The notes beneath the pieces are model-generated. The model was not told the DNA's origin. It saw nothing but the letters and a program-made list of their open reading frames with translations, and did not search any database. Positions 13,349 to 28,582 of a DNA stretch of 64,000 bases are shown piece after piece. How positions within the stretch are numbered: the stretch's first letter is position 1; each line of letters opens with the position of its first letter. The stretch comes from Pseudomonadota bacterium. GTDB lineage: Bacteria > Pseudomonadota > Alphaproteobacteria > Rhodobacterales > Rhodobacteraceae. A program made the translations under genes and the position numbers. The DNA lies in the NCBI GenBank assembly GCA_020161655.1, contig JAIUPC010000008.1, forward strand, positions 124,001 to 188,000. Reading direction: 5' to 3'.

Positions 13349-14401
13349 TTAACGGTCGGTGCCTGAGTCGCCGCTGGCGCGATATAGGCGGAAGAGCATC
13401 GGGGCGCCAAGGATGACGACGAGAATCCGGACGAGGTGGTGCGCGATAACAAAGCCGAGGTCGGCGCCGGAAACAATGGCAAGCATCGACATCTCTGCCT
13501 GACCGCCGGGGGTGAAGGCAAGAAAAGCCTCGACCGGCGGCGCAAGGCCGAACCAGGTGACGAATTCCGTGGCGATCCCGGCAAGGACGGCGAGGATGAG
13601 GACGAAGGCCGCGCCACCGGCCACGGTATCGCGCAGTTCGCGCAGCGTGACGCCGGCATAGTTCACGCCGATGCCCATGCCGATCAGGAACTGCGCCGCC
13701 AGAAGCGCCTCGCGCGGGGGGCGCTGGTGCAGTAACCCGGCCAGCGACAGGATCGCGGCGACGATCAGGGGGCCGATGATGGCGGCGCCGAAAAGCCCGA
13801 TGCGCTCACCGCCCTTCCAGCCGATCAGCGCCGCCACGATCATCAACCCGATCTCGGTCGGGGGAATGTCGGCGGCAGGCTCCCCCACCGGATGCGTCAG
13901 CCGGACGCCGAAGACGTTGACGAGGATCACCGGCGCCAGGACCATGATCACCAGAAGCCGCGTGACATGGACCAGCGACAGTTGCCGGACATTGGCCCCG
14001 GCCTCCTGCCCGAAGATGGTCATGTCCGCCGCCCCGCCCGGCATCGCGCAGTAGAAGGCCGTCACCGGATCGAACTTGCAGACGCGGCGGAAGAAGGGAA
14101 CGCCGACGAGGCCGATCACCGCGACATAGACCGGCACCACGGCGACCGAGGCCAGCATCTGCGGCAGCTTGGCGATCAGCGCCGGGGTGACGGCGGCGCC
14201 GACGGCGACACCGAGGACAGAGCGCGCCGCGACCGAAACCTGTCCGAGGTTCTTCAGCGGCGCACCGACAAGGGCGGCCAGCAAGCAAGCGGCCATTGGC
14301 CCGAAGAGAAACGGCAGCGGCAGGTGCAATAGCGCAAATGTCCCGACCCCAGCGAGGCCGGTAACGATGGTCAGGAGCTGCTTCGTCAGAGTGGCGCGCA
14401 T
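13349..14401 (-). CDS. AbrB family membrane transporter
   Basis: The 350-residue protein is almost entirely hydrophobic with about ten membrane segments and two copies of the AbrB-type duplication; the halves each contain a PGG-centred loop (CAMPGGAADMTIFGQEAG and FTPGGQAEMSMLAIVSGAD). This is the family annotated as AbrB or putative ammonia monooxygenase and is found as a transporter-like membrane protein of uncertain substrate. It lies just downstream of the cupin and dehydrogenase genes on the same strand (15-base gap), so it may be the last part of the organic-acid cluster rather than an isolated gene. Confidence 0.8.
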   Translation of the reverse strand: MRATLTKQLLTIVTGLAGVGTFALLHLPLPFLFGPMAACLLAALVGAPLKNLGQVSVAARSVLGVAVGAAVTPALIAKLPQMLASVAVVPVYVAVIGLVGVPFFRRVCKFDPVTAFYCAMPGGAADMTIFGQEAGANVRQLSLVHVTRLLVIMVLAPVILVNVFGVRLTHPVGEPAADIPPTEIGLMIVAALIGWKGGERIGLFGAAIIGPLIVAAILSLAGLLHQRPPREALLAAQFLIGMGIGVNYAGVTLRELRDTVAGGAAFVLILAVLAGIATEFVTWFGLAPPVEAFLAFTPGGQAEMSMLAIVSGADLGFVIAHHLVRILVVILGAPMLFRLYRASGDSGTDR

Positions 14402-14416
14402 CCCTTTACCCGCCCG

Positions 14417-14824
14417 TCACTTCGGCGCATGGCCATGTTCGGCGTCGATGGTCCGCGTGTCGCCGGTGGCGACCATGGTGCGGGTGGCATCGACGGTGGC
14501 ATAGGTCCAGAAGATGCGCATGGGCCGGTCGGTCGGATTACGGAAGCGGTGCGGCACTTTGGCGGGAATCCAGGTCGTGTCATTGGTCGAAAGCCGGTGC
14601 TCGACGCCGTCGATCTCGGCGATGGCCTCGCCTTCGATCACCATCACGCTTTCCTCGCAATTGTGGAAATGGAGGCCGATGGCGGCACCGGGATCAAAGG
14701 CGGTGATGCCGTTGATCATGCTTGTGGACCCGCAGCGGCGGGTGACGAGCGGCGTGGTCCGCGCGCCGCCGCCACGGTCGTTGGTCTTCATCTCGTGCGG
14801 GCGGAGGATGGCGGGTTCGGGCAT
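14417..14824 (-). CDS. Small cupin-domain protein
   Basis: The 135-residue protein has a single cupin barrel. Motif 1 is visible as LHFHNCEESVMVIEGE, which supplies two histidines and a glutamate for a metal, and motif 2 as WIPAKVPHRFRN with the final histidine. The ATG at 14824 has GAGG 7 bases upstream and lies 9 bases after the aldehyde dehydrogenase stop. Single-domain cupins serve as small isomerases, lyases or oxygenases on sugars and organic acids; the reaction is not assignable. The context suggests a role in the TctABC-linked catabolic cluster. Confidence 0.8.
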   Translation of the reverse strand: MPEPAILRPHEMKTNDRGGGARTTPLVTRRCGSTSMINGITAFDPGAAIGLHFHNCEESVMVIEGEAIAEIDGVEHRLSTNDTTWIPAKVPHRFRNPTDRPMRIFWTYATVDATRTMVATGDTRTIDAEHGHAPK

Positions 14825-14832
14825 GGGAGACC

Positions 14833-16209
14833 TCATGTCGCGGGACCGATCCAGACGGTCTTGATGTTGACGAATTCGCGGATGCCCCAGACGCCAAGCT
14901 CGCGCCCATAGCCGGATCTCTTGATGCCGCCGAAAGGATAGCGCGGGTCGGAGGCGGTCATGCCGTTGACGAAGACCGCGCCCGCCTCGATGCGGGAGGC
15001 GAGCGCCCTGCCCCGTGCTGGGTCACCGGTCCAAAGCGCGGCACCAAGCCCGTAGTCGCTGTCATTGGCCATGGCGATGGCCTCGTCGGCGTCCTTGGCC
15101 CGGATGATCGCCGCGACGGGGCCGAAGGTTTCCTCGCGGAAGGCCACCATGCCGGGCTTGACGTGATCAAGGACCGTCGGCGGGTAGTAGAAGCCTTCGC
15201 CTGGCAGTGGCTCCCCGCCCAGCCGCAGCACCGCGCCTTCGGCAATGGACCGCTCTACCTGCCCGTGCAGCGTGTCGCGCAGGTTGCCGCGCGCCATGGG
15301 GCCGATCTTCGTATCCCGCGCCATCGGATCGCCGACCTTCAGCGCCGCGGCCTTGGCAACGAAGATATCGGCGAACCTGTCGGCCACCGCCTCCTCGACG
15401 ATGAACCTTTTGGCGTTCACGCAGCTTTGCCCGACGTTCACGTAGCGCGCCTTGACCGCCGTCTCCGCCGCCGTCTCAAGATCGGCGTCGGCCAGCACGA
15501 TGAAAGGGTCCGATCCGCCAAGCTCCAGCACCTGCTTCTTCAGCGCCCTGCCCGCCTGCGAGGCGACGATGGACCCGACCTCGGTCGAGCCGGTCAGCGT
15601 CACGGCGGAAATGCGGTCATCGGCGATGATCCCGGCGACCTTCGAGGTGTCGACGAGAAGCGTCGTGGTCAGCCCCTTCGGCACGCCGGCCTTCTCCATC
15701 ACCTCCTGCACCGCCAGGGCGCATTCCGGCACGTTGTTGGCGTGTTTGAGGATCGCGCCATTGCCTGCTGCCAGCGCCGGGGCGGCGAAGCGGAAATACT
15801 GCCAGAAGGGGTAGTTCCACGGCATGATCGCCAGCACGACGCCCAAGGGTTCGAAGGCGACGACGCTTTCGGTGGCACTGGACGGCACCGGCTCATCGGC
15901 AAGGAAGGCCGCCGCATGTTCGGCGTAGTAGTCGCAGTTCCAGGCGCATTTCTCGATTTCCGCGTCGGCCTCGGCGATGGGCTTGCCCATCTCGCGCACG
16001 ATCATTTCGGCATAGCGCGCCTTGCCGGCGCGCAAGGTCGCGGCGATGCGGGGCAGAAACTTTACCCGTTCCGAAACCGGCACCAGCCGCCACTGCCGCT
16101 GTGCTTTCGCGGCAGCTTCAAGGGCAGTATCGACGGCCGCATCGTCCTGTAGCGAGAAGCTGCGGATCGGCTGGCCCGTCGTGGGGTTGATAGAGGTGAT
16201 CTCGGTCAT
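14833..16209 (-). CDS. NAD(P)-dependent aldehyde dehydrogenase (succinate-semialdehyde dehydrogenase type)
   Basis: The 458-residue enzyme shows the aldehyde dehydrogenase active site: E229 in LELGGSDPF and the nucleophile C263 in GQSCVNAKR, with the cofactor segments MPWNYPFW and TGSTEVG. It resembles the short succinate-semialdehyde dehydrogenase branch that lacks an N-terminal extension. The ATG overlaps the stop of the hydroxypyruvate isomerase gene by 4 bases. In this cluster it could oxidise tartronate semialdehyde, succinate semialdehyde or another short aldehyde; sequence alone does not decide. Confidence 0.85.
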   Translation of the reverse strand: MTEITSINPTTGQPIRSFSLQDDAAVDTALEAAAKAQRQWRLVPVSERVKFLPRIAATLRAGKARYAEMIVREMGKPIAEADAEIEKCAWNCDYYAEHAAAFLADEPVPSSATESVVAFEPLGVVLAIMPWNYPFWQYFRFAAPALAAGNGAILKHANNVPECALAVQEVMEKAGVPKGLTTTLLVDTSKVAGIIADDRISAVTLTGSTEVGSIVASQAGRALKKQVLELGGSDPFIVLADADLETAAETAVKARYVNVGQSCVNAKRFIVEEAVADRFADIFVAKAAALKVGDPMARDTKIGPMARGNLRDTLHGQVERSIAEGAVLRLGGEPLPGEGFYYPPTVLDHVKPGMVAFREETFGPVAAIIRAKDADEAIAMANDSDYGLGAALWTGDPARGRALASRIEAGAVFVNGMTASDPRYPFGGIKRSGYGRELGVWGIREFVNIKTVWIGPAT

Positions 16210-16985
16210 GCGGTGATCCTTTGCGACAGGAGCGCCTTCCAGCCGGGCAGGAAGGCCGCACTTGCCGAGGTGGCAACGGAGGGGATGTATTCGAAACCGA
16301 TGGCACCCGCGTATCCCGCGCCCTGCAAGGCGGCGAGGATGCGCGGGAAGTCGAGCGTACCGGTTCCCGGCTGATGCCGTCCGGGATGGTCGGCGATATG
16401 GACATGGCCGACGCGGGCTGCGTTGGCTGTGATCCAGAGGGAGGGATCGACGCCAAGGGCGGCGGCATTGTAGGTGTCGAACAGCTGCGCGGCGCCGAAG
16501 CGGTCCTGCACCTCGGACGCATAGGCGAGCGTTGCCAGATGGTAGCCGGGGATGGCGATCGCCTCGACAAGCAGCCTGAGGCCGGTGCCCCGGAGCCGCT
16601 CCGCCGCCCAGTCGAGATTGGCGGCATAGGTCTTGCGCGCTCCGGCGTCGTCCAGCGGGGCAAGTCCCGCCATCGGATGGACAAACCCCGCGCCGACACC
16701 CAGCGCATAGTCCGCCGCCCGGTCAAAGCCGCGCCGGAAATCCGCCTCTCGCCCCCGCAGCGCCGCAAGGCCCTTCTCGACTTCGGCCGGGTCGCCCATG
16801 CCCGATGTGACTTGCGTGAAGGTCAGGCCCAGATCGCGGATGAGGGCGCGCATTTCCCCGGCGGGCAGCGCCCAGGGTTCCGGATGTTCGATGGCGGTGA
16901 AGCCATCGCGGGCGGCAGCAACGGGCCGGTCCGCCAGCGGCAGCTCGGCGTAAAGATAGCCGATATGCGCGGAAAGCCGGTTCAT
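16206..16985 (-). CDS. Hydroxypyruvate isomerase family protein (TIM barrel)
   Basis: The 259-residue protein is an AP-endonuclease/xylose-isomerase-like TIM barrel. Metal-binding positions of the family are visible in LLVEAIA, QLFDTYNAA, VGHVHIADHPGRHQPGTG and FEYIPS. The HIADHPGRHQPGTG segment is highly typical of hydroxypyruvate isomerase, which interconverts hydroxypyruvate and tartronate semialdehyde in glyoxylate and tartrate metabolism. It overlaps genes on both sides by 4 bases, so it is expressed with the Ldh2-family dehydrogenase upstream and the aldehyde dehydrogenase downstream. Confidence 0.82.
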   Translation of the reverse strand: MNRLSAHIGYLYAELPLADRPVAAARDGFTAIEHPEPWALPAGEMRALIRDLGLTFTQVTSGMGDPAEVEKGLAALRGREADFRRGFDRAADYALGVGAGFVHPMAGLAPLDDAGARKTYAANLDWAAERLRGTGLRLLVEAIAIPGYHLATLAYASEVQDRFGAAQLFDTYNAAALGVDPSLWITANAARVGHVHIADHPGRHQPGTGTLDFPRILAALQGAGYAGAIGFEYIPSVATSASAAFLPGWKALLSQRITA

Positions 16986-18046
16986 GCCGCCTTCCCCGCC
17001 GGAAAGGTCACGCCCGCCGCTTTCCCCTCGGCGGTCAGGTCCGCGACGACATTGGCCGTCACCGGGATGCCATCACGCCGCCGCTGATCCTCGCGCCGCT
17101 GTTCCGGCTCGCCGGGCAGCATGATCTCATCCACCCCTGCCGCGCGGGGCAGCGCCTTGATGCGGGCGTAGAATTCATCCATCCGCGCGCCGAAATCATC
17201 CATCGACAGGAAAAGATCGGGCCGGATCGCGAAGAAGAGATGGCCGACGTTCTGCGGCTCGGAATGGTCGAAGTAGAGGCTTTTCACGTCGCCGCCGAAA
17301 TTCGCGCCGGTCAGGACACCCGAGAGAAGGTCCATCAGCGTGCCGAGGACCGACCCCTTCACCCCGCCGAAAGGCAGGCAGACGCCTTCGAACGCCTTCG
17401 CCGCATCGGTCGTGGGGTTGCCGTCGACATCCAGCGCCAGGCCTTCGGGGATCGGGTCGCCCTTCATCGCGGCAAGCCGGATCTTGCCGCGCGCGATCAC
17501 CGTCATCGCCATGTCCATGACGTAGGGCGGATGCTTGCCACCGGGGATGCCCGCCGCGATGGGGCTGGCGCCGAGGAAGGACGTGCGCCCGCCCCACATG
17601 GCGATGGCAGGCGAGGAGTTGGTGAAGATGAGCGAGATATAGCCCCGCTCGATGGCGCGGAGAGCATAGCAGGCGCCCATGCCGAAATGGGTGGAGCGAT
17701 GCACCCCAGCAAGCCCGATGCCCATTTCCCCGGCGATGTCGCAGGCCGTGTTCATGGCGATATGCGAGGGGATGAACCCCATGCCGTTGTCGCCATCGAC
17801 CGAGGCGACGGCGCCGGCGACCCTCGCTACCTTCACATCGGGCCTCGGGTTCACCAGACCCCGGCGCAGACGCTCCAGATACATCGGGATGCGGCTGATA
17901 CCGTGGCTGTCGACGCCGCGAAGATTGGCCTTTACGAGATCGCCAGCGATCAGCGTCGCATCCTCGCGACTCATCCCGGCGGAAAGGAACATCGCGGTGG
18001 CGTAGTCGGTCAGGGCTTCAGGTCGGAAGGTGAGCGTATCGGCCAT
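16982..18046 (-). CDS. Ldh2-family (malate/L-lactate dehydrogenase type) NAD(P)-dependent oxidoreductase
   Basis: The 354-residue protein carries the Ldh2/YlbC signature: ANLRGVDSHGISR with the catalytic-site histidine, THFGMGACYALRAIERG, and the MDMAMTVIARGKI nucleotide-binding stretch. Members reduce or oxidise 2-hydroxy acids such as malate, ureidoglycolate, sulfolactate or 2,3-diketogulonate. Its place between TctA and hydroxypyruvate isomerase suggests that it oxidises a hydroxy acid imported by TctABC. The start at 18046 is 78 bases after the tctA stop. The C-terminal tail is arginine-rich (EPEQRREDQRRRDG) as in this family. Confidence 0.85.
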   Translation of the reverse strand: MADTLTFRPEALTDYATAMFLSAGMSREDATLIAGDLVKANLRGVDSHGISRIPMYLERLRRGLVNPRPDVKVARVAGAVASVDGDNGMGFIPSHIAMNTACDIAGEMGIGLAGVHRSTHFGMGACYALRAIERGYISLIFTNSSPAIAMWGGRTSFLGASPIAAGIPGGKHPPYVMDMAMTVIARGKIRLAAMKGDPIPEGLALDVDGNPTTDAAKAFEGVCLPFGGVKGSVLGTLMDLLSGVLTGANFGGDVKSLYFDHSEPQNVGHLFFAIRPDLFLSMDDFGARMDEFYARIKALPRAAGVDEIMLPGEPEQRREDQRRRDGIPVTANVVADLTAEGKAAGVTFPAGKAA

Positions 18047-18124
18047 TTTCAGGCTCCATCAGGGTGCACCGTCCAGCCCGGCTGCGAAAGGCGGCCGGTC
18101 GGAAGGTCGTTGGAGGGGTATTCG

Positions 18125-19639
18125 TCAGCCGGAAATGTCTTCCGACTGCGCTATCTTGCGGGTCCGGCGCCAGTGAAGGACGGCCGGAACCGTGATTACG
18201 AAGAAGGCAATCGCGATCAGCAGGGCCGAGAGCGGGGTGGAAACGAAGACCATCGGATCGCCCTGCCCGATGGCCAGCGCCCGGCGCATCTGCACCTCTG
18301 CCATCGGCCCGAGGATGAGGCCGATGAGAACCGGCGCGATGGGGAAGTCATAGACCCGCATCGCATAGCCCATGAGGCCGACGACGAACATCATGGCGAG
18401 ATCAACCCATGAGTTCGAAACGCCCCAGATACCGACGAGCGAGAAGATCAGGATACCCGCGTAAAGATAGGGTCGCGGGATGAATAGAAGCCGCACCCAG
18501 AGCCCCGCCAAGGGCAGGTTGAGGATGAGGAGCATCAGGTTGCCGACATAGAGCGAGGCGATGAGGCCCCAGACGAGATCGCCGGAGTTGATGAAGAGAA
18601 GCGGCCCCGGTTGCAGACCGTAGTTCTGGAACGCGGCCAGCATGATCGCCGCCGTGGCCGAGGTCGGCAGGCCAAGCGTCAGAAGCGGCACCAGCACGCC
18701 GGCGGCGGAGGCGTTGTTCGCGGCCTCCGGCCCCGCCACGCCCTCGATGGCGCCATGGCCGAATTCCTCGGGGTGCTTGGTCAGCTTGCGCTCGACGGTA
18801 TAGGACAGGAAGGTCGGGATCTCGGCCCCGCCCGCCGGCAGCGCGCCGATGGGAAAGCCGAAAAAGGTGCCCCTGAGCCAGGGCTTCCAGGACCGCTTCC
18901 AGTCCTCCTTCGTCATCCAGATGCCGCCCGCCAGGGGGTTGAGGTTCGGCTTCTGCATTCCGTAGCGGCTGGCGACGTAGAGAGTCTCGCCGATGGCGAA
19001 GAGTGAGACGAGGACGACCGTCATCTCCACCCCGTCCATGAGGTCGGGGACACCGAAGGTCAGGCGCTGCTGGCCGGTGGCCTTGTCGATGCCGACGAGA
19101 CCCAGGGAAAGCCCGATGAAGAGCGAGACGAAGCCCCTGACCTTGGAAGTGCCCATCACCACCGAGACCGAAAGGAAAGCCAGAAGCATCAGCGCGAAAT
19201 AGTCCTGCGGCTTGAAGATGAACGCCAGTTCCGCAATCGGCGGCGCAAGGAAGGTGAGGCCCAGCGTGCCGATGGTGCCCGCCACGAACGAGCCGATGGC
19301 TGCGGTGCAAAGGGCGGCCGCGCCGCGACCGTTCCGCGCCATGCGGTTGCCTTCCAGCGCGGTCATCATCGCGCCGCTTTCGCCCGGCGTGTTCAGGAGG
19401 ATCGAGGTGGTCGAGCCGCCATACATGGCGCCGTAGAAGATGCCGGCGAACATGATGAAGGCCGCCGTCGGCTCGATATAGACCGTCACCGGCAAAAGAA
19501 GCGCGATGGTCAGCGCGGGGCCGATGCCGGGAAGGACGCCGATGGCGGTGCCCATGAAGGTGCCGAGAAAGGCCCACATCAGGTTTTGGGGCTGAAGGGC
19601 GATGCTGAAGCCGTGCATCAGGCCGGTGATCGGGTCCAT
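18125..19639 (-). CDS. tctA: TctA, tripartite tricarboxylate transporter large membrane subunit
   Basis: The 504-residue inner-membrane protein has about 12 membrane segments and the family signatures [21 protein letters not shown] and the [19 protein letters not shown] loop that are diagnostic of TctA. It forms the transport channel for carboxylates delivered by the periplasmic TctC protein, driven by an ion gradient. The ATG at 19639 is two bases after the tctB stop. It is followed by catabolic dehydrogenase genes, which points to import of their substrate. Confidence 0.93.
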
Positions 19640-19641
19640 GC

Positions 19642-20115
19642 TTACACCCCCAGAAGCGGCAGGAAGCCGCCCAGCTGCACGCCGAGCTTGCGGAAGAGCC
19701 ACCAGCTTGTGGCCGAGAAGGCAAGGCCGATGGCCGCGTTAAGGAGCCAGCGCTCCGACTTGAAGGCCGCGGCGACCAGAACAAAGCAGCCAGTGCAGGT
19801 GATGACGAAGCCAAGCTTCGGCATCGTCAGCATCGGCAATGCGCAGGCCGCCGCCGCGAAGCCAAGCGCCTTATAGGAGACGGCGTGAGTTTCGCTCACG
19901 TCCTCCGCCTCCTGTTCTTCGAACGGAACGCCCTGGCGGATCTGTACCGCGAGCATCAGGCCCAGGAGAACCAGCCCGGCCCCGACGGCCGACGGCAGGA
20001 AGCCGGGACCGATGTAGGCGTATTGGTCGAACTGGGGAAGCTCCGCTGCCTTAAGAAGGACAATGGCTCCCCAGCCCACGGTGCCTGCGGCGATCCAGTA
20101 GGGGCGTTCCGTCAT
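19642..20115 (-). CDS. tctB: TctB, tripartite tricarboxylate transporter small membrane subunit
   Basis: The 157-residue protein has four predicted membrane segments (about residues 6-22, 40-60, 84-105 and 112-150) and the conserved [16 protein letters not shown] region of TctB. It partners TctA. The gene sits between tctC (27-base gap) and tctA (2-base gap), the standard CBA order. The length matches the family. Confidence 0.9.
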
Positions 20116-20142
20116 TTTTTCATCCTTTCAGGACGGGGCGGT

Positions 20143-21093
20143 TTACTGGACCAGCCCGGCTTCTTTCAGGATTTCGCCGATGCGCGTCTTTTCGGTCTCA
20201 AGGAAGGCAGCGAAGTCGTCACCGGCAAGGAAGGCGTCTTCCCAGCCCTGCTTCGCCAGGATGTCCTTCCACGCCGGACCTTCGTGCATCTTGGTGAAAC
20301 GGTCGAGCCACATGGCCTTGCCTTCCGCCGACATTTCCGGCGCGCCCATGATGCCGCGCCAGTTGCCGACAACCACATTGATTCCCGATTCCTTCAGGCT
20401 CGGCGCCTCGATGCCGTCGACCTTGGCCTCCGAAGTGACGGCGATGATGCGGATGCGACCCGCATCGGCCATCGGCTTGAATTCGGACACGCCGGATACG
20501 GCGACGGTGATGGCGCCGCCGCCAAGGGCCGTCACGACCTCGGCGCCGCTGTCATAGGGGATGTAGTTCAGCGCCTTCGGGTCAAGCCCGCTTTCCTTGG
20601 CCAGAAGCGCCATGACAATATGGTCGACGCCGCCGGCAGAGCCGCCGCCGATGGAGACGCCGCCGATGTTCTCCTTCATCATCTTCACGAGGTCATCGAC
20701 GGTCTGGATCGGCGAATCCGTGGCAACGGCGATGACGCCGGTGTCGTTCGTCAGCCGCACGAGGGGCGTCACGTCGCTGAGCGTGACGGGCGAGGCGTTC
20801 AAGAGAATGCCGCCGACCATGATCACGCCCATCGACATGACCGCATTGTCGTTGCCCTTGTTGGCGCCGACGAATTCGGCAAGGCCGATGGTGCCGCCAG
20901 CACCGCCCTTGTTGGTGAAGGTCGCGCCATCGGTGAAGATGCCGTCGGCGGACATTGCGTCGAACGGCATCCGGGCCGTGGCATCATAGCCGCCGCCTGC
21001 GCCGCCCGGCGCCATCACCACTGCCGGCTCTGCGAAGGCCGCGAAGCCGGTGAACGCAACGGCAACGCCTGCTGCGAGTATCTTTCTGATCAT
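20143..21093 (-). CDS. tctC: TctC-family periplasmic solute-binding protein
   Basis: The 316-residue protein starts with a Sec signal peptide (MIRKILAAGVAVAFTGFAAFA) and then the family opening VVMAPGGAGGGYDATAR, where TctC proteins bind the carboxylate. Further family features are TFTNKGGAGGTIG and the SIGGGSAGGVDH loop. It captures an organic acid in the periplasm for TctAB. It has its own 240-base upstream region with a perfect inverted repeat that resembles a GntR operator, so a promoter probably lies there even though the DUF4387 gene upstream is on the same strand. Confidence 0.92.
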   Translation of the reverse strand: MIRKILAAGVAVAFTGFAAFAEPAVVMAPGGAGGGYDATARMPFDAMSADGIFTDGATFTNKGGAGGTIGLAEFVGANKGNDNAVMSMGVIMVGGILLNASPVTLSDVTPLVRLTNDTGVIAVATDSPIQTVDDLVKMMKENIGGVSIGGGSAGGVDHIVMALLAKESGLDPKALNYIPYDSGAEVVTALGGGAITVAVSGVSEFKPMADAGRIRIIAVTSEAKVDGIEAPSLKESGINVVVGNWRGIMGAPEMSAEGKAMWLDRFTKMHEGPAWKDILAKQGWEDAFLAGDDFAAFLETEKTRIGEILKEAGLVQ

Positions 21094-21170
21094 TGTTTTC
21101 CTCCCTTTTGATGCGGGCATGGCGCCCGTTTGCAGCCCGAGTGGCCACGACGACAGAGCGCCCTCCACAT

Positions 21171-21196
21171 TTGTCGTACGAATCTACATACGACAA
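21171..21196. promoter_or_regulatory. Inverted-repeat operator upstream of tctC
   Basis: Perfect 8-base arms TTGTCGTA (21171-21178) and TACGACAA (21189-21196) are separated by 10 bases. The left part TTGTCGTACGA also fits the TNGTNNNACNA pattern common for GntR/FCD regulators. The site ends 78 bases before the tctC ATG. The same TTGTCGT core recurs upstream of the gntR and isopropylmalate-dehydrogenase-family genes of this cluster, so it is probably bound by the regulator encoded at 23036-23914. Confidence 0.7.
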
Positions 21197-21333
21197 TGCT
21201 GCGAAGCAAGCAATCGCCCTGTCGCGCGCCGGAACGGGCAACAGGGACAGACTGCGGCGAGCGCGCGGCGTTTTCAACCATTTGTCGCCTTGCGGGCCAT
21301 CAATGACACGCGCGGCCCGCCTGGGCGCCCGTT

Positions 21334-21636
21334 TCAGTCGATCTCCAGCTCTTCCAGAAGGCAGCCCCAGCCAGCCCCGTGCATGTCGCGGTCGGTGCGT
21401 TTGCCCTGCACCACCGGGCGCGGGACCGAGAATTTGACGACGTTCAGCGCCGGGATGTCGAAGCGCTTCAGAAGCTGCCGGTCGACGCCGTAAAGCCCCG
21501 CCACTACCTCGTCCTTCAGGCTTTTGCTCACCCGCAAGAAGGTGTCGCTGTCACCGCAAAAAACGTCGATGGTCAGCCAGAAGGGGCCGGCGTTCTTTGA
21601 ACGGACCTTGCTGACGATGCTTCCCAGCTCAGGCAT
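21334..21636 (-). CDS. DUF4387 family protein
   Basis: The 100-residue protein begins MPELGSIVSKVRSKNAGPFWLTIDVF, the conserved opening of DUF4387, and includes ALNVVKFSVPRPVVQG near the C-terminus. The ATG at 21636 overlaps the end of the AtuA-family gene by 8 bases, so the two are translationally coupled. The pair is commonly found together, and the small protein may be a subunit or lid of the larger one. The biochemical function is not known to me. No signal peptide or membrane segment is visible. Confidence 0.85.
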   Translation of the reverse strand: MPELGSIVSKVRSKNAGPFWLTIDVFCGDSDTFLRVSKSLKDEVVAGLYGVDRQLLKRFDIPALNVVKFSVPRPVVQGKRTDRDMHGAGWGCLLEELEID

Positions 21637-22987
21637 TGCCGACCTCATGCACGTCAAGGGTGAAAGCCGCCATCGGATCGTCAAGCTCCATCACATGGTT
21701 GAGGCAGAATTCGTAGAGCGCGCCCCTTTGCATTTCCGCCGGTGAAAAGGGGAAGGCGAAGGTCGGCATCGGCTCGTCCTCGGTCAGGGGATGATGGAGG
21801 AGGTAGGGGTTCATGATCTTCGCCGCCTCGGCCGCCTGTTCCTGCGTGGGGCAGGTCAGGATGCCAAGGATGCCGACCTCGACCGGAACATCACGACGGT
21901 TCTCCAGCGTGCCGAGCGTCGCATCCATGCCGATCAGCCGGATATCGACGTCGAAGTCACCGGGCGAAAGGCCCATCCGCGCCTCGATCTTGGCGCGCAC
22001 CTTTGCCGCGACATCGGCGGCCCATTCCCGCGCGTTCTGCACGTAACGCCGGTCGCGCATCACCGCGAGACCGACCGACTGGTGGCCGACGACCCGTGCG
22101 CCCTCAAGCTTGACCGTGTAGCGCCCCTTCACCCATTTCGAGCCTTCGACCCGTACCCGGCGCTTGTCGAGCGGCTGGTAGTCGGACCCGGTGACATCGA
22201 GATGCCCGCCCGGTTCATGGAGAATGAAGGGGTCGGAATTTTCGTAAAGCATATGCGCCGAAACGGTGTAAGGCGTAGCCGCCGCTTCGGGCGCCATCGG
22301 CTCGACGGTGAAACCCGCCGCGTCAAAGTCGATCTGGATCACGCCGGAGTTCGGATGCGTGGTGGCGAGCGCCCCGCATTCGCCGATCTTGGCGCCGTGC
22401 CAGGCGGCACCCGGATGGTCGCCGCGCAGGATCGGCAGCGCGGCGATGATCGCGGTATCCGTGGTGCGCCCGGCGATGACGATATCGGCTCCGGTCGCCA
22501 GCGCCGCCGCGACCTGCTCAACCCCGGCGAGGGCGACGATGTTGCTGCAATCGTCGATGATCGCTTCGGACACCTCCGGTGCGGCCGGCAGGGCGCGGAG
22601 CCGGCCATCCGCCAGCGCTGCCTTGACCCGCCCCTTCGGCTGGCCGGAGCGGATGGTGGCCACCCGGACCTGCATCCCTTCTTCCGCCGCAATCTCCCGC
22701 GTGATGCCCAGAAGCCAGTCCACCGTCTGATCCGCGCCGCAGGTTCCCGCCGTGCCGATCACCAAGGGCACCCCGGCTTTCGCCCGCGCCTGCATCAGTT
22801 CGCGCCATTCCACCTTCGTCGAGGCGCGGGAGTATTTCGACACGCCGCGCCCCAGATAGGACGGGCCGCTGTCGGTCGATCCGCCGTCGATGGCGATGAT
22901 GTCGGGCCCATTGGCAAGGCCGCGTTCAAGTGCGCCCCGGTCATAGCCAAGGCCAAGCGCCCCCGCAGGGATCAGAACCCGGGTCAT
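21629..22987 (-). CDS. AtuA-family protein (DUF1446)
   Basis: The 452-residue cytoplasmic protein has the N-terminal AtuA/DUF1446 features GALGLGYDRGALERGL, IAIDGGSTDSGPSYLG and GTAGTCGADQTVDW, and later DIVIAGRTTDTAI and NSDPFILHEPGG. AtuA is needed for acyclic terpene degradation in Pseudomonas, but its reaction is not defined, and most homologues sit in unrelated carboxylic-acid clusters with DUF4387 and Tct transporters, as here. The gene lacks the geranyl-CoA carboxylase partners AtuC and AtuF nearby, which argues against terpene use. I infer an enzyme acting on the imported acid or its CoA ester, with low certainty. Confidence 0.8.
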   Translation of the reverse strand: MTRVLIPAGALGLGYDRGALERGLANGPDIIAIDGGSTDSGPSYLGRGVSKYSRASTKVEWRELMQARAKAGVPLVIGTAGTCGADQTVDWLLGITREIAAEEGMQVRVATIRSGQPKGRVKAALADGRLRALPAAPEVSEAIIDDCSNIVALAGVEQVAAALATGADIVIAGRTTDTAIIAALPILRGDHPGAAWHGAKIGECGALATTHPNSGVIQIDFDAAGFTVEPMAPEAAATPYTVSAHMLYENSDPFILHEPGGHLDVTGSDYQPLDKRRVRVEGSKWVKGRYTVKLEGARVVGHQSVGLAVMRDRRYVQNAREWAADVAAKVRAKIEARMGLSPGDFDVDIRLIGMDATLGTLENRRDVPVEVGILGILTCPTQEQAAEAAKIMNPYLLHHPLTEDEPMPTFAFPFSPAEMQRGALYEFCLNHVMELDDPMAAFTLDVHEVGNA

Positions 22988-23035
22988 CAGCGTACCTCCT
23001 TGATCCGTTTCAACAGTTCACCGCTGAAATGCGGC

Positions 23036-23914
23036 TCAGAACATCTCGGCCCGCGCCTTGCGGTCCTTGGCCTTGCCGAGATGGGCGAACATCAGATCCG
23101 CCGCCAGCCCGGTATCGCCTGCATCGAGCGCATCGAGAATGCCCATATGTTCGGCATTCTGACCCCGGACCTGATCGGTGTTCAAGGTCTGGCGGTATTC
23201 GACGAGGCGGCGAAGCTGGTTGAGCTTCTGGACGGAGGAGAGAAGGAAGCGGTTGCCGGAAAGCTCCGCCAGCCCTTCGTGAAACTCGGAATTCGTCTCG
23301 AAAAGCTCCATCTGGCTCAGCTTCTGCCAGCCGCCTTCGGCAATCATGGTCTGCCGGCGCCTGAGGTCCGCCAGAATGTTCCGATCCAGCCGGAACGATG
23401 GCGAGCGCAGGCCGTGCGTCTCGATCACCTGCCGAAGCTCGTAGCATTCGCGGTACGCTTCGACCGAATCGATCAGCGCCGCGAAGGTCCAGCCCCGTCC
23501 CTCGTTCCGTTCGATCCAGCCCTCGCCGGAAATACGGGTCAGCACCCGGCGGAGCGCCAGCCGCGAGATGCCGTAGCGGCGCATCAGGTCGTTTTCGCTG
23601 ACACGGTCGGGAAGGTGTTTCGACAGGCGTTCATCCGCGATCTTCAGGTAGATCGCCTCGTCGGAGGTCTCATCTGCGGGCGGCGCGGCGTCGGCCTGGG
23701 CCAGCCCCGGATCGCAGAGAAAGAAGCCCTTGTTCGGCACCTTTTGCAGGATACCCTGTTCGGCAAGGATGCCCAGCGCGGACCGGATCGGCTGGCGCGA
23801 GGTGCCAAGGATGTCCTGCAGGCCCGCTTCGGTCAGATGCGCGCCCTCGGCCATGTCCGAGGTGCGGATGTGGCGGATGATGCGATCCGCGAGGGAGCGG
23901 TGGAGCTCGTTCAT
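23036..23914 (-). CDS. GntR/FCD-family regulator with two predicted winged helices
   Basis: The 292-residue protein has an ordinary GntR winged helix at about residues 2-67 (LADRIIRHIRTSD, then the recognition helix SRQPIRSALGIL and the wing VPNKGFF). A second winged-helix-like segment follows at about 86-150 (AIYLKIADERLSKHLPDRVSENDLMRRYGISRLALRRVLTRISGEGWIERNEGRGWTF in outline), then a helical FCD domain. It is about 60 residues longer than usual FCD regulators of 220-240 residues. A GTG 9 bases upstream (23923) is an alternative start; no clear ribosome site supports either. A TTGTCGTTT site lies just upstream, which suggests autoregulation. Confidence 0.82.
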   Translation of the reverse strand: MNELHRSLADRIIRHIRTSDMAEGAHLTEAGLQDILGTSRQPIRSALGILAEQGILQKVPNKGFFLCDPGLAQADAAPPADETSDEAIYLKIADERLSKHLPDRVSENDLMRRYGISRLALRRVLTRISGEGWIERNEGRGWTFAALIDSVEAYRECYELRQVIETHGLRSPSFRLDRNILADLRRRQTMIAEGGWQKLSQMELFETNSEFHEGLAELSGNRFLLSSVQKLNQLRRLVEYRQTLNTDQVRGQNAEHMGILDALDAGDTGLAADLMFAHLGKAKDRKARAEMF

Positions 23915-23945
23915 GACCGGCACAGGAATGGCATTATGTTCCGAT

Positions 23946-23954
23946 AAACGACAA
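23946..23954 (-). promoter_or_regulatory. Candidate GntR site upstream of the gntR gene
   Basis: The minus strand reads TTGTCGTTT, the same 9-mer found at 25080-25088 and sharing TTGTCGT with the tctC operator. It lies 23-31 bases before the possible GTG start and in the 42-base gap between the two genes, a place expected for autoregulation. Confidence 0.5.
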
Positions 23955-23965
23955 CGGCCCCCGAT

Positions 23966-25030
23966 TCAATCCAGCACTGCCGCCGCGACCCTTTCGGCAA
24001 AGGCGCGCGTCCCGAGCTGCCCGCCAAGGTCGCTCGTCCGCGTCCCGGCATCGGCGACCACCCTATCAAGCGCGGCCATGATTTCCGTCCCGGCCGCAGC
24101 GAGGGCCGGCTGCCGTCGCTTTTCGCCCAGCCATTCAAGGAGCATCCCCGCCGAGCCGATCAGCGAGGCGGGATTGGCGATGTCGCGCCCCGCAATGTCC
24201 GGGGCGGAGCCGTGCTGCGCCTGCGCCATGGCGATCTCATCCCCGGCATTGACGGAGGCGGCAAGGCCGAGGCTGCCGGAAAGCTCGGAGGCGAGGTCCG
24301 AGAGGATATCGCCGAACATGTTGGTGGTGACGATCACGTCGAAGGCCTCGGGCCGGCGGACCAGATGGGCGCAGGCGGCGTCGATGATCAATTCGTCATA
24401 GGCCACGTCCGGATAACGCGCCGCCACCTCGCGGCAACAGGCCAGGAAGAGGCCGTCGGTGATCTTCAGCACATTGCCCTTGTGGACCGCCGTCACCTTC
24501 CGTCGCCGCGTCATCGCCCCGGCGAAGGCAGCCTCGGCGATGCGCAGGGACGCCTTCCGGGTGATGCGGCGCATCGCAAGTGTCACATCCGCCGTCACCT
24601 GCAACTCCCCCGGCCCGGTTTCCATGCAGCGGTCGGCATAGAAGCCTTCGGTATTCTCGCGGTAGATCACAAGGTCGAATGTCGCCCCCGTACGCGAGGG
24701 CAGCCCGGCCCTTGTCCGCGCCGGACGGATGTTGGCGTAAAGGTCGAGCCGCTTGCGAAGTTCGCCGGACGGGTTCAGCCCCCCGGCCTCGCGCGGCGGA
24801 TAGTCCATATGGGACACCGGCCCAAGGATCAGCGCATCCGCCGCCCGCGCCGCCGCGAAGGCGGCCTCCGGCAGTGTCGAGCCCTGTGCGTTCAGCGCAC
24901 CGAAACCGATGGCGATCTCGGCGAAGTCGAAGCCAAGCCCGTGCTTCCGGTCCGCTGCCTGAAGCACCGTCCTTGTCGCTGCGGTGATCTCCGGGCCGAT
25001 CCCGTCGCCGGGAAGGAAAGCGATCTTCAT
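23966..25030 (-). CDS. Isocitrate/isopropylmalate dehydrogenase-family enzyme
   Basis: The 354-residue NAD-dependent decarboxylating dehydrogenase shows [11 protein letters not shown] at the N-terminus, [22 protein letters not shown] with substrate-binding arginines, [12 protein letters not shown] with the catalytic-site tyrosine region, and [18 protein letters not shown] with the catalytic lysine. D-rich metal motif residues lie in [10 protein letters not shown]. The YRENTEG variant occurs in the tartrate/homoisocitrate/isopropylmalate branch. No leuCD genes are near, so leucine synthesis is unlikely, and a role on a 2-hydroxydicarboxylic acid such as malate, tartrate or a 3-substituted malate is inferred from the Tct context. 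Confidence 0.82.
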
Positions 25031-25079
25031 GGCAGGCCTCCGCCTGTTCAGTGGATCTAGTTATGTCTTTTATATGTAC

Positions 25080-25088
25080 AAACGACAA
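25080..25088 (-). promoter_or_regulatory. Candidate GntR site in the divergent IPMDH-family/cupin promoter region
   Basis: The minus strand reads TTGTCGTTT followed by GTACATA, in an AT-rich 115-base gap between the divergent genes starting at 25030 (minus) and 25146 (plus). The shared TTGTCGT core with the sites at 21171-21196 and 23946-23954 suggests a common regulator that could control both directions. Confidence 0.55.
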
Positions 25089-25145
25089 TTTTGCAAGTCC
25101 CGGACTTGCGGCATACTGTCGGGCAGGCACATCGGAGGGACGGAA

Positions 25146-25541
25146 ATGGAGATCACTCGCGCAGGCACCACCCCGTCGCGACAGGGGCCGACCGAATGGT
25201 TCACCGGCACCGTCCGCCTCGAGAGCCTGATGAATAGCCACGACCCCGCGCGGGTGCAGGGTGTCACCGTCACCTTCGAACCCGGCGCGCGCACCAACTG
25301 GCATACCCACCCGCTCGGCCAGACCCTGATCGTGACCGCTGGCCTTGGCCGCGCGCAGCGCTGGGGCGGCCCGGTCGAGGAGATCCGCCCCGGCGACGTG
25401 GTCTGGTTCGCCCCCGGCGAAAAGCACTGGCACGGCGCGGGCACGGCGACAGCGATGACCCACATCGCCGTACAGGAAGTCCAGGACGGCCGCGCGGTCG
25501 ACTGGCTGGAGAAGGTCAGCGACGCGGATTACGGCGTCTGA
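25146..25541 (+). CDS. Cupin-domain protein
   Basis: The 131-residue protein is a single cupin with motif 1 as [16 protein letters not shown], holding two histidines, and motif 2 as [17 protein letters not shown]. It is preceded by the strong ribosome site GGAGGGACGGAA. This type is similar to small cupins near carboxymuconolactone decarboxylases, but the reaction is unknown. It is transcribed away from the IPMDH-family gene and shares a candidate operator with it, so it probably belongs to the same regulon. Its last 13 bases overlap the end of the convergent RND gene. Confidence 0.82.
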
Positions 25542-28500
25542 CCACCCTTCTCCTCCTTCACCCGGAACACGGCGAGGTATAGCGCCGGGGCGAAGACGAG
25601 GGTGATGACGGTCCCGGCGATGATGCCGCCCATCATCGCATAGGCCATCGGCCCCCAGAAGATCTGCCGCGAGATCGGGATCAGCGCGAGGCTCGCCGCT
25701 GCCGCGGTGAGGAGGATCGGCCGCGCGCGGGCGTCCGAGGCCTCGAAGACCGCGGTCCAGGCGGAATGGCCGCGCGCCCTTAGCACCTCCACCTCGTCGA
25801 TGAGGATGATGGAGTTGCGGATCAGGATGCCGATCAGCGCGAGGACGCCCAGGATGGCGACGAAGCCCAGAGGCGCGCCCGAAGGCACCAGCGCCGCGAC
25901 GACGCCAATGAGGCCAAGCGGCGCCACGCAGATCACGACGAAGGCGAGCCGGAAGCTCTGCATCTGGATCATGATAAGCGTCAGCATGATGAGGATCATC
26001 AAGGGCACCACGGCGGCAATCGGCGCCTGGCTGTCGGCTGAGCTTTCGACGGTGCCGCCGACAACAGCCTCGTAGCCGGGCGGCAGCGCGGCGTTGAAGG
26101 CGTCGACCTGTTCCTTCAGCGCGGCGACGATGGTCGCGGGCTGGTCCTTGGTGGTGATCGCCGCCTTCACCGTCACGGTCGGCATCCGGTCGCGCTGGTG
26201 GATCACCGGCTGCTCGGTCCCGTAGCTGAAGGTCGCGACAGAGCGAAGCGGGATCGCGCGCCCGTCGCCGGTCGACAGCTGAAGGTCGGGCAAGGCCTCG
26301 ACGATCTCACGCGACTGGGCATCGCCGCGGGCGATGATGTCGACGAGATAGGCGTCGTCGCGAAGTTCCGTGACGGGCACACCGGCATAGATCGCGTTCA
26401 GTCCCGCCGCGATGTCGCGCTGGGTGATGCCCATTTGCCGGGCCTTGTCCTGCAAGATGTCGACCCGGACGACCCGCGCCGGCTCGTTCCAGTCCATGAC
26501 GATGTATTTCAGCCGCGGGTCCGAGGCGACGATCGCTGTCAGGTCGCGGGCCTTGTCCCTCAGCGTTTCGAGGTCGGGGCCGGACATGCGGTATTGCACG
26601 GGGCGGCCGACCGGAGGGCCGATCTCCAGAAGCTTCACGTAGATGTCGATTCCGGGAAACTCGTTTTCGGCGATGCCCCTCAGCTTCAACTGAAGCGCGT
26701 TCCGCGCCTCGACCGAGGGCGTCAGGATCACGATCTGACCGACGTTCGGTTCCGGCGTCATCACGTCATAGGAGAGGATGAACCGCGGCGCGCCGCGACC
26801 GACATAGGACGACCAGTAAAGCACGTTCTCATCATCGGTCAGGTAGCCCTCCATCCGGTCCATCTGGGCCTTGGTCTCGGTGATCGAGGCGTTCTGCGGC
26901 AGGGTGAAATCCAGCACCAGTTCTGGCCGGTCGGAGCTTGGGAAGAACTGTTGTTCGACAAAACGCATGCCGAAGATCGACAGTGCGAAGGTGGCGACGG
27001 TCAGCGCGATGGTCAGCCAGCGGTGCCGCATGGCCCAAAGAAGTACAGCGTGGAACATCCGCCGCACCCGGCCCGGTTCGGCGGAGTGATGCTTCATCTC
27101 TTTCGGCAGGAAGGTCACGCCCAGCAGCGGAGCGAAGAGGACCGCCACGATCCATGACACCAGAAGCGAGACCGCGATCACCACGAAGAGCGAAAAGGTG
27201 AACTCGCCCGCCGCCGAGGAGTTGAGGCCGATGGGGATGAAGCCCGCCACCGTCACCAAAGTTCCCGACAGCATCGGGAAGGCTATGGAAGTCCAGGCGT
27301 AGGAGGCGGCACTCGTCAGGCTCTCGCCCTTTTCCAGCCGCGAGATCATCGTCTCGATGGCGATCATCGCGTCATCGACCAGAAGCCCGAGCGCGATGAT
27401 GAGCGCACCGAGCGAAATCCTCTGCAGGGTGAAGCCGGTGTATTCCATCACCACGAAGGTGATGGCGAGAACGAGGGGGATGGTCAGCGTCACCACCAGC
27501 CCGGCGCGCATCCCGAGCGAGATGAAGCTGACGGCAAGGACGATCAGCACGGCTTCGAGGAGCGCCTGAAGGAAATGGCCGACCGCTTCGTCAACCGCAT
27601 GGGGCTGGTTCGCCACCTGATGGATCTCGATGCCCACCGGCAGGTCGGCCTCGGCCGTGGCCATGACCTTTTCCAGTTCCTTCCCGAAGTCGACGATGTT
27701 GGCGCCCTGCCGCATCCCGACGGCGAGGCCGACCGCCTCTTGCCCCCGGTAGCGGAAGAGTTCCGCCGGCGGGTCTTCGTAGCCGCGCCGGATATCTGCC
27801 ACGTCGGTCAGCCGGAAAAAGCGGTCTCCGACACGCAGGTTGATGTCCTCAAGGCTCTCGGTGCCGGAAAACTGCCCGCCGATCCTGACGACCACACGTT
27901 CCGGCCCGGCTTCGATCACGCCCGAAGGCACGATGGCGTTCTGGGCGGCAAGCGTCGCCTGCACCGCCTGCTGGTTCAGGCCAAGCGCCGCGAGACGGTC
28001 GGTGGAGAATTCGAGATAGATCACCTCGTCCCGGGTGCCGAAAATCTCGACCTTGCCGGCATCGGGCAGCGCCTGCACCGCGCGCCGCACGGTTTCGACG
28101 CGGTCGCGCACCTCGCGCGGGGAAAACCCGTCCGAAGTGAAGGCATAGATGTTGCCGAAGACGTCGCCGAAACTGTCGTTGAACTGGAAGCCCACGAATT
28201 CGGCCGGAAACTCCGGCCGGATGTCGGCCATCATGTTGCGGACCTTCTGCCAGATGCGCGGCAGTTCCTTTGCATCCGTCGTCGGCAGCAGCTCAAGATA
28301 GACGATGGCGGTTCCGGGCCGGGTGACGGAGCGGGTGAAATCCAGCTCGTCCAGATCCTCGAGCTTCTTCTCGATCCGGTCGGTGACCTGGGTCAGCGTC
28401 CGCTCGACATCGGCGCCGGGCATGGAGGCGGAGATGATCATGGTCTTGATCGCGAAGTTCGGGTCTTCCTCGCGGCCGATGGCGAAATAGGCCATCACGC

Positions 28501-28582
28501 CGGCAAGGATCGACACGATCATCAGGAACCAGACGAAGGACCGGTGCTTCAAGGCCCAGTCGGAAAGGTTGAACGTGTTCAT
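25529..28582 (-). CDS. RND-type efflux transporter permease (AcrB/MexB superfamily)
   Basis: The 1017-residue protein has the RND layout of an N-terminal membrane helix, a large periplasmic loop (about residues 35-330), a bundle of membrane helices, a second loop and a second bundle. The proton-relay aspartate pair is visible in [14 protein letters not shown]. It exports drugs, solvents or metabolites from the inner leaflet or periplasm together with a periplasmic adaptor and an outer-membrane channel. No outer-membrane TolC-like gene is in the window, so a shared channel must be used. The ATG overlaps the stop of the adaptor gene by 4 bases. The substrate is unknown. Confidence 0.93.

Follow-up and report, generated by a model that had tools for sequence, protein, structure and literature searches.

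What acid is consumed by an operon that joins a tripartite tricarboxylate transporter to an AtuA-family protein, its DUF4387 partner and a mixed set of dehydrogenases, and what does the AtuA/DUF4387 pair do to that acid? The question is raised by positions 124001-188000 of contig JAIUPC010000008.1 (hereafter the window, the whole 64-kb stretch analysed) in a 4.08-Mb genome of the Rhodobacteraceae. With moderate confidence, and judging by homology, we read the locus as a GntR-controlled catabolic operon for an imported 2-R-malate, that is, a citramalate-like acid, which the AtuA/DUF4387 pair would split without the help of CoA. The central pair appears to be a variant form of a lyase type for which a structure was recently solved. 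Our literature search did not find the complete gene set described or named, which agrees with an earlier sequence-only reading of this DNA that could name no matching pathway.

The evidence for a lyase comes from the citramalate lyase CmlAB. The window AtuA protein matches PDB chain 9erq_A, deposited as citramalate lyase subunit A (cmlA), with an E-value of 3.2e-77 and residues 3-440 of 452 aligned, and the DUF4387 protein matches chain 9erq_B, deposited as subunit B (cmlB), with an E-value of 1.3e-11. An AlphaFold2 model of AtuA built from 24 rows (pLDDT 86) has a sole PDB match at E <= 0.001, 9evf_A (TM 0.84, 35% identity), the title of which is "Citramalate lyase - ADP - pyruvate complex"; 9erq and 9evf hold the only solved AtuA/DUF4387-type pair among the PDB matches. 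Moreover, 25 alignment columns are invariant over 40 AtuA proteins, the CmlA relative of E. coli O157:H7 included; the residues held in common include D34, D39, R174, D177, K200, E203, C204, H245, Y248, E249, K293, E295 and E370. The earlier statement that AtuA-family chemistry is undefined is outdated, as the solved relative is deposited as an enzyme of C-C cleavage and not as a hydratase, racemase or CoA enzyme. On this homology the window pair probably works like CmlAB but need not be its ortholog. The DUF4387 domain is present as a single copy in the whole genome, and natural AtuA-DUF4387 fusions form a single chain of 716 or 693 amino acids in two other loci (L147 and L148). A role of AtuA as a terpene enzyme was considered and rejected; the name is inherited, and the contexts seen are those of organic acids or transporters.

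In our model, TctC would bind a tertiary-hydroxy di- or tricarboxylic acid and TctAB would import it, import being the established role of TctCBA in this transporter family. AtuA/DUF4387 would then cleave the 2-R-malate without CoA to a 2-oxo acid (R-CO-COO-) and an acetate unit. A carboxylate in its free form accepts electrons poorly in a retro-Claisen cleavage, and 9evf holds ADP together with pyruvate; we therefore suggest that ATP would turn the terminal carboxylate into an activated acyl phosphate, with the ensuing retro-Claisen cleavage yielding acetyl phosphate or acetate. For the clade to which the window protein belongs, we infer the lyase activity, the use of ATP, the direction of the reaction and the substrate alike. 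Ldh2 and the Hyi-like protein would process the 2-oxo acid, while oxidative decarboxylation of the isomeric 3-R-malate, or of a related malate, would fall to the IPMDH-like enzyme. The genome encodes phosphotransacetylase, acetate kinase and MOFRL glycerate-kinase domains that might absorb the products. Our guess is that R carries OH or COOH and is not a plain alkyl group, or else that R is CH3.

The pair and the importer are also what related loci keep. We sampled the best 80 of 420 relatives, found through AtuA, and distinguish 12 window-type loci (L031-L042) and 68 type B loci; window-type genes were counted at 55% identity or more, with AtuA present in 12/12 by construction and DUF4387 and the Tct genes not used as bait. 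DUF4387, like AtuA, is found in all 12 window-type loci, and TctC, TctB and TctA in 11 each, L031 being cut before the Tct genes. TctCBA, AtuA and DUF4387 are kept together in 11/11 uncut window-type loci, while every other gene is absent from at least two. The IPMDH-like gene is present in nine (absent from L032, L033 and L035), AbrB in nine (one of the three loci without it is cut short before the AbrB position), the window-type GntR gene in seven and the aldehyde dehydrogenase gene in five. Ldh2 (86-89% identity), Hyi and the small cupin share the same eight loci, and all three are absent from L037, L038 and L041. The invariant core is TctCBA, AtuA and DUF4387, and the IPMDH-like gene and the Ldh2-Hyi-(aldehyde dehydrogenase)-cupin module are accessory. 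The association of AtuA, DUF4387 and TctC that the sequence-only reading proposed looking for in other genomes does recur, also in type B loci with Tct genes of their own. Its proposal of an importer and a coupled AtuA/DUF4387 pair for a hydroxy-carboxylic acid is supported, but the two dehydrogenases, the isomerase and the aldehyde dehydrogenase drop from the core to accessory rank.

Genes were called by Pfam profile search over the genes from 8982 to 29643, and NCBIfam models were used with their equivalog cut-offs (Table 1). The minus-strand run from 25030 to 14417 holds every operon gene first named from the sequence, each confirmed by Pfam. The run is real, but its end was placed too early at 14417: the AbrB gene lies 15 bp downstream of the Cupin_2 gene on the same strand, is kept in 9/12 window-type loci as noted above, and belongs to the operon. 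The proposed ATG of DUF4387 overlaps the AtuA stop codon by 8 nt, that of TctA lies 2 nt past the TctB stop codon, and the Ldh2/Hyi, Hyi/aldehyde dehydrogenase and aldehyde dehydrogenase/cupin junctions each have 4-bp overlaps. MutE, Mal and fumarase were not found among the genes scanned. The divergent cupin that had been counted with the cluster scores 191 bits against a cut-off of 140 for the (R)-mandelonitrile lyase model NF049940; because a counterpart was found in 0/80 related loci, it is probably outside the system, and we rejected it as a member. It adjoins an RND efflux pair at 25529-29643.

Table 1 Features of the operon, its putative operator sites and related genes cited in the text (positions in the window unless a locus is given)
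Feature	Position	Strand	Evidence or remark
IPMDH/isocitrate-dehydrogenase-family beta-decarboxylating dehydrogenase	23966..25030	-	Pfam Iso_dh 310 bits
GntR/FCD-family regulator	23036..23923	-	Pfam GntR + FCD
AtuA-family large subunit, CmlA-like	21629..22987	-	Pfam AtuA; PDB 9erq_A E 3.2e-77
DUF4387 small subunit, CmlB-like	21334..21636	-	Pfam DUF4387 83 bits; PDB 9erq_B E 1.3e-11
TctC periplasmic solute receptor	20143..21168	-	Pfam TctC 82 bits
TctB small membrane subunit	19642..20115	-	Pfam TctB
TctA large membrane subunit	18125..19639	-	Pfam TctA 509 bits
Ldh2-family 2-hydroxyacid dehydrogenase	16982..18046	-	Pfam Ldh_2 402 bits
Hyi/OtnI-like isomerase, xylose-isomerase-like, divergent	16206..16985	-	Pfam AP_endonuc_2
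Aldehyde dehydrogenase	14833..16209	-	Pfam Aldedh 479 bits
Small cupin	14417..14836	-	Pfam Cupin_2
AbrB-family (PF05145) membrane protein, last operon gene	13349..14401	-	Pfam AbrB 256 bits
Divergent cupin	inside ORF (open reading frame) 24984-25541	+	NF049940, (R)-mandelonitrile-lyase-like
Putative operator, palindrome TTGTCGTA-N10-TACGACAA	21171..21196	.	upstream of TctC
Putative operator half-site TTGTCGTTT	23946..23954	-	upstream of GntR gene
Putative operator half-site TTGTCGTTT	25080..25088	-	upstream of IPMDH-like gene
AtuA-DUF4387 fusion	L147 8119-10269		single protein
AtuA-DUF4387 fusion	L148 8169-10250		single protein
E. coli O157:H7 Sakai ECs_0759	L111 46934-47251		annotated acyl-CoA synthetase; matches 9erq chain B
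E. coli O157:H7 Sakai ECs_0760	L111 47248-48618		annotated 3-methylaspartate ammonia-lyase; matches 9erq chain A

The type B loci, all from Rhodobacteraceae, bear on the identity of the acid. DUF4387 is present in 68/68 of them, together with more distant TctA (65/68) and TctC (63/68); there is no IPMDH or GntR match among the 68, and Ldh2 (1), Hyi (3), aldehyde dehydrogenase (4) and AbrB (4) are matched in few, all under 55% identity. By the Pfam matches of one member each, the recurring ORF clusters encode TctB, a solute-binding protein, and the sensor and the regulator of a two-component system; each cluster is present in 45-48 of the 80 loci. Besides importer and pair, no further enzyme was seen to recur in most type B loci. 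Such a minimal gene set, like the deposited activity of the solved relative, speaks for plain (S)- or (R)-citramalate as the substrate, with Ldh2, Hyi, the aldehyde dehydrogenase and the IPMDH-like enzyme as side activities or passengers, an alternative that we regard as possible but doubtful. Use of pyruvate and acetate would not call for Ldh2, Hyi or IPMDH, but Ldh2 is strongly conserved in the eight window-type loci that carry it; in addition, the window protein falls outside the CmlA clade and the IPMDH-like enzyme has a polar loop that is not of the alkyl type.

The best-scoring solved chains for the IPMDH-like protein are isocitrate and homoisocitrate dehydrogenases, and it stays below the equivalog cut-offs for LeuB (TIGR00169, 234.2 of 353.2 bits), Icd and tartrate dehydrogenase (TIGR02089, 233.9 of 470.4 bits). 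At the position that we take to be the substituent-recognition loop of the IPMDH family, all nine aligned window-type enzymes that cover it (the window and eight others, the L037 protein being too partial to show it) have NPS(G/S)xLR, where E. coli has GALLPLR (LeuB), GSLLKFR (DmlA) and SLNVALR (Icd). The polar NPS loop hints at a polar substituent on the substrate. IPMDH, Hyi and Ldh2 families together recall tartrate and glyoxylate metabolism, and the genome has a MOFRL glycerate-kinase domain, all of which would suit a tartrate or D-malate pathway in which the IPMDH-like enzyme performs the key step, Hyi and Ldh2 handle hydroxypyruvate derived from oxaloglycolate, and the AtuA pair is auxiliary. 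We consider this quite improbable, as the IPMDH-like enzyme is far under the tartrate dehydrogenase cut-off, its loop differs from that of DmlA, and its gene is absent from three of the 12 window-type loci, while AtuA, the bait, and DUF4387, which was not, are absent from none. The name hydroxypyruvate isomerase, given earlier to the Hyi-like protein, holds at the family level but not beyond it: the protein misses the cut-offs for Hyi (TIGR03234, 181.8 of 353.45) and 2-oxo-tetronate isomerase (166 of 325), and it has Asn in place of the DxxH His that is kept in eight other window-type proteins and in E. coli Hyi and YgbM. It is also fast-evolving, with 57-71% identity among window-type loci. 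The aldehyde dehydrogenase is nearest to succinate-semialdehyde-type models and lies below the NCBIfam cut-offs.

If R were CH2OH, as in itatartarate, cleavage would give hydroxypyruvate, which would explain both Hyi and Ldh2. It is tempting to speculate that the window clade represents a new lyase specificity for a hydroxylated 2-substituted malate, for example fungal itatartarate (yielding hydroxypyruvate and an acetyl unit) or plant hydroxycitrate (yielding oxaloglycolate and an acetyl unit), with Ldh2-Hyi and the IPMDH-like enzyme as alternative outlets for the oxo acid, which would be hydroxylated. This is the bold reading and not the best-supported one, and we hold it to be unlikely. According to excerpts of a published study, itatartarate and its lactone are real fungal metabolites; a lactonase leads to itatartarate, the onward conversion of which is there only conjectured (PMC9875883). 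If the bold reading were true, it would provide a degradation route for such acids via an ATP-using, CoA-free C-C lyase, and no such route was found in the passages on these acids.

The broader substrate class, a 2-R-malate, draws support from the genes that stand beside nearer relatives of the window protein. In a 40-row AtuA tree, for which the program warned of long branches, the window lies in a 29-row clade set apart from CmlA (support 100/100, branch 1.39). The very deep gap to CmlA suggested by this tree did not hold once 13 rows were added in a second tree of 35 rows with fewer close ones: intermediates shorten the gap between window and CmlA to 0.25 + 0.48, and the window falls within a clade of 18 rows (100/100) that is itself part of a set of 23 rows (100/99). 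Surrounded by Rhodobacteraceae proteins, the window AtuA has Shinella proteins as its sister (98/96 and 99/96), a placement that suggests transfer between orders.

Relatives that are nearer than CmlA have telling neighbors. In family f67, relatives were found at 12 places in 11 of 198 genomes, and ten of these loci were examined (L142, L149, L211-L218), two of which, L142 and L149, supplied the query proteins. A citrate synthase homolog is present in 10/10 and CitMHS in 9/10 of these loci, accompanied by a D-2-hydroxyacid dehydrogenase (6/10), PrpD (6/10, with a seventh at 30%) and LeuCD (3/10). L142, L149, L211-L214 and L216 fall in the 18-row clade of the window, and L215, L217 and L218 just outside it. 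Within the clade but outside f67, L143 has LeuCD, CitMHS and a D-2-hydroxyacid dehydrogenase, L146 has CitMHS and a TonB receptor, and L145 has a TonB receptor and an MFS transporter. Most neighbors in the clade and in the f67 loci are enzymes or carriers of 2- or 3-substituted malates, and this supports the proposed substrate class. The f67 neighbors, being of aconitase, PrpD and citrate synthase type, would also suit a different chemistry, in which the pair of this clade acts not as a lyase but as a hydratase, an isomerase or a CoA-linked enzyme beside LeuCD, PrpD or citrate synthase homologs; the place of the window outside the CmlA clade fits this as well. We judge it improbable, because the 25 invariant positions and the fold are common to CmlA, and because a hydratase or isomerase acting alone would presumably require partner enzymes, of which type B shows none recurring in most loci.

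Other settings of the pair were also seen. The recurrent f67 cluster, which sometimes also includes DUF1302/DUF1329, may represent an acid pathway of its own. L138, L141, L151, L153 and L154, with gene sets alike, make up a third AtuA/DUF4387 setting; L151 has peptide-type ABC transporter genes and an acyl-CoA:6-aminopenicillanate acyltransferase-family (AAT) protein. In L144 a DUF4387 match adjoins only a short AtuA fragment, and this locus was left out.

Several points weigh against a CoA-free cleavage of a citramalate-like acid by the window pair. The window AtuA shares only about 35% identity with CmlA, and neither tree places it inside the CmlA clade (a 4-row clade with support 100/98 in the 35-row tree), so the substrate of the window pair, and even its exact reaction, could differ. 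The function of CmlAB itself is taken from the names and titles given by the PDB depositors, and our literature search found no paper describing it. Pairs on the CmlA side also adjoin peptide-type ABC transporters with an AAT-family protein, or a TRAP subunit with an amidase; because neighbors vary in this way and L143, L145 and L146 have no citrate synthase match, context alone cannot fix the chemistry. Where present, citrate synthase homologs could mean a synthetic or CoA-linked role. Finally, the Hyi-like step may be altered or dead because the DxxH His is lost, and type B families present in up to 13 loci are annotated only in part.

A repeated site suggests how the operon is regulated. 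The pattern TTGTCGTWT occurs three times in the 64 kb, upstream of the IPMDH-like, GntR and TctC genes, against 0.23 expected, and 1 of 100 shuffles reached three, a figure that is not blind in that the pattern was picked after reading the sequence. Two further places, 20846 (within TctC) and 63212, carry the shorter TTGTCGT(A/T). The 8-bp inverted repeat that precedes TctC is perfect in the window, L031 and L032; in the remaining loci that bear the half-site, its first half is exact and its second half imperfect. An exact half-site precedes TctC in the window and in 7/7 loci with a GntR ortholog (77% or more; in the cut L031 it was scored after DUF4387) and in 0/5 loci without one, and in five of the seven it also precedes the GntR gene. 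Presence of the half-site matches presence of the GntR ortholog in 13/13 window-type loci including the window; these loci are related and do not amount to 13 independent events. Across all positions TTGTCGT(A/T) occurs 41 times in the 1.34 Mb of the 68 type B loci; the window-type loci, with 0.22 Mb, have 31 occurrences, of which some lie inside TctC. Because the half-site before TctC follows the GntR ortholog across relatives, the GntR protein is likely the regulator of the operon, and we infer that the repeated site is likely its operator. Promoter and terminator scans gave no more matches than in shuffles.

The same observations speak to whether there is a joint pathway at all. Shinella, Neorhizobium, Rhodobacter, Cypionkella, Tabrizicola and Xinfangfangia have the window order too, though not every one of them has all the genes; the gene order is shared across Rhodobacteraceae and Rhizobiaceae. 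Accessory genes that come and go among loci are what a chance assembly would produce, but we give that explanation almost no credence given the start/stop overlaps, the same order in two families, and one site that stands before three genes and tracks the GntR gene.

The citramalate-like reading also illuminates a better-known organism. ECs_0760 and ECs_0759 of E. coli O157:H7 align to 9erq A and B end to end or nearly (970 and 193 bits). This pair and the pair in L137 adjoin methylaspartate mutase / ammonia-lyase and class I fumarase, L137 repeating the E. coli context with AtuA/DUF4387 beside MutE, Mal and fumarase. Methylaspartate mutase / ammonia-lyase together with class I fumarase form a route that produces (S)-citramalate. 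Adjacent locus tags in the excerpt of a Prevotella table indicate a third methylaspartate-type context (PMC10434189). In the excerpts of a 2015 paper on E. coli O157:H7, a DUF1446 gene of unknown function adjoins methylaspartate ammonia-lyase in the glutamate-fermentation island, and the fate of (S)-citramalate is called unclear (PMC4682846). By their homology, ECs_0760 and ECs_0759 likely fill this open step, which would be a likely answer to the question of that fate.

The annotated names of these two genes, 3-methylaspartate ammonia-lyase and acyl-CoA synthetase, illustrate how AtuA/DUF4387 genes can bear misleading names. A link to a CoA-free lyase would provide a testable function for a protein that 81 of the 295 genomes sampled from the window's family carry, when a genome is counted if it has one or more matches with E <= 1e-60 and an identity of at least 53%; two of these are partial. 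The different settings point to several separate acid-catabolic operons. Our literature search found no paper on DUF4387 and none joining either AtuA or hydroxypyruvate isomerase with a tripartite transporter; among the papers listed for AtuA/DUF1446 nearly all were Portuguese-language or unrelated, and by their listings none of the citramalate lyase papers since 2022 describes a CmlAB-type enzyme.

Compared with known systems, the transporter is ordinary in make-up, with TctA, TctB and TctC all present in the window. The IPMDH-like dehydrogenase shares family-wide homology with LeuB, homoisocitrate and isocitrate dehydrogenases but stays under the tested equivalog cut-offs and has an NPS loop that E. 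coli LeuB, DmlA and Icd lack. The erythronate/threonate pathway, which like the window has a Hyi/OtnI-family isomerase (OtnI), was rejected, as the Pfam matches of the operon include no kinase or aldolase family and the isomerase is below cut-off. Unlike citrate lyase CitDEF or the citramalyl-CoA route, the operon has no CitDEF subunit or CoA transferase in the Pfam results for its genes, the rest of the genome not having been searched. CmlAB (9erq, 9evf) is alike in the make-up of AtuA with adjacent DUF4387, near full-length homology, large-subunit fold and invariant residues, and differs in identity and clade, as set out above, and in that the window pair stands in an operon without methylaspartate genes and with its own TctCBA importer. 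The E. coli O157:H7 methylaspartate island likewise carries a close CmlAB-type pair; there, according to the excerpts, the presumed source of citramalate is glutamate within the cell (PMC4682846), whereas the window operon instead includes an importer.

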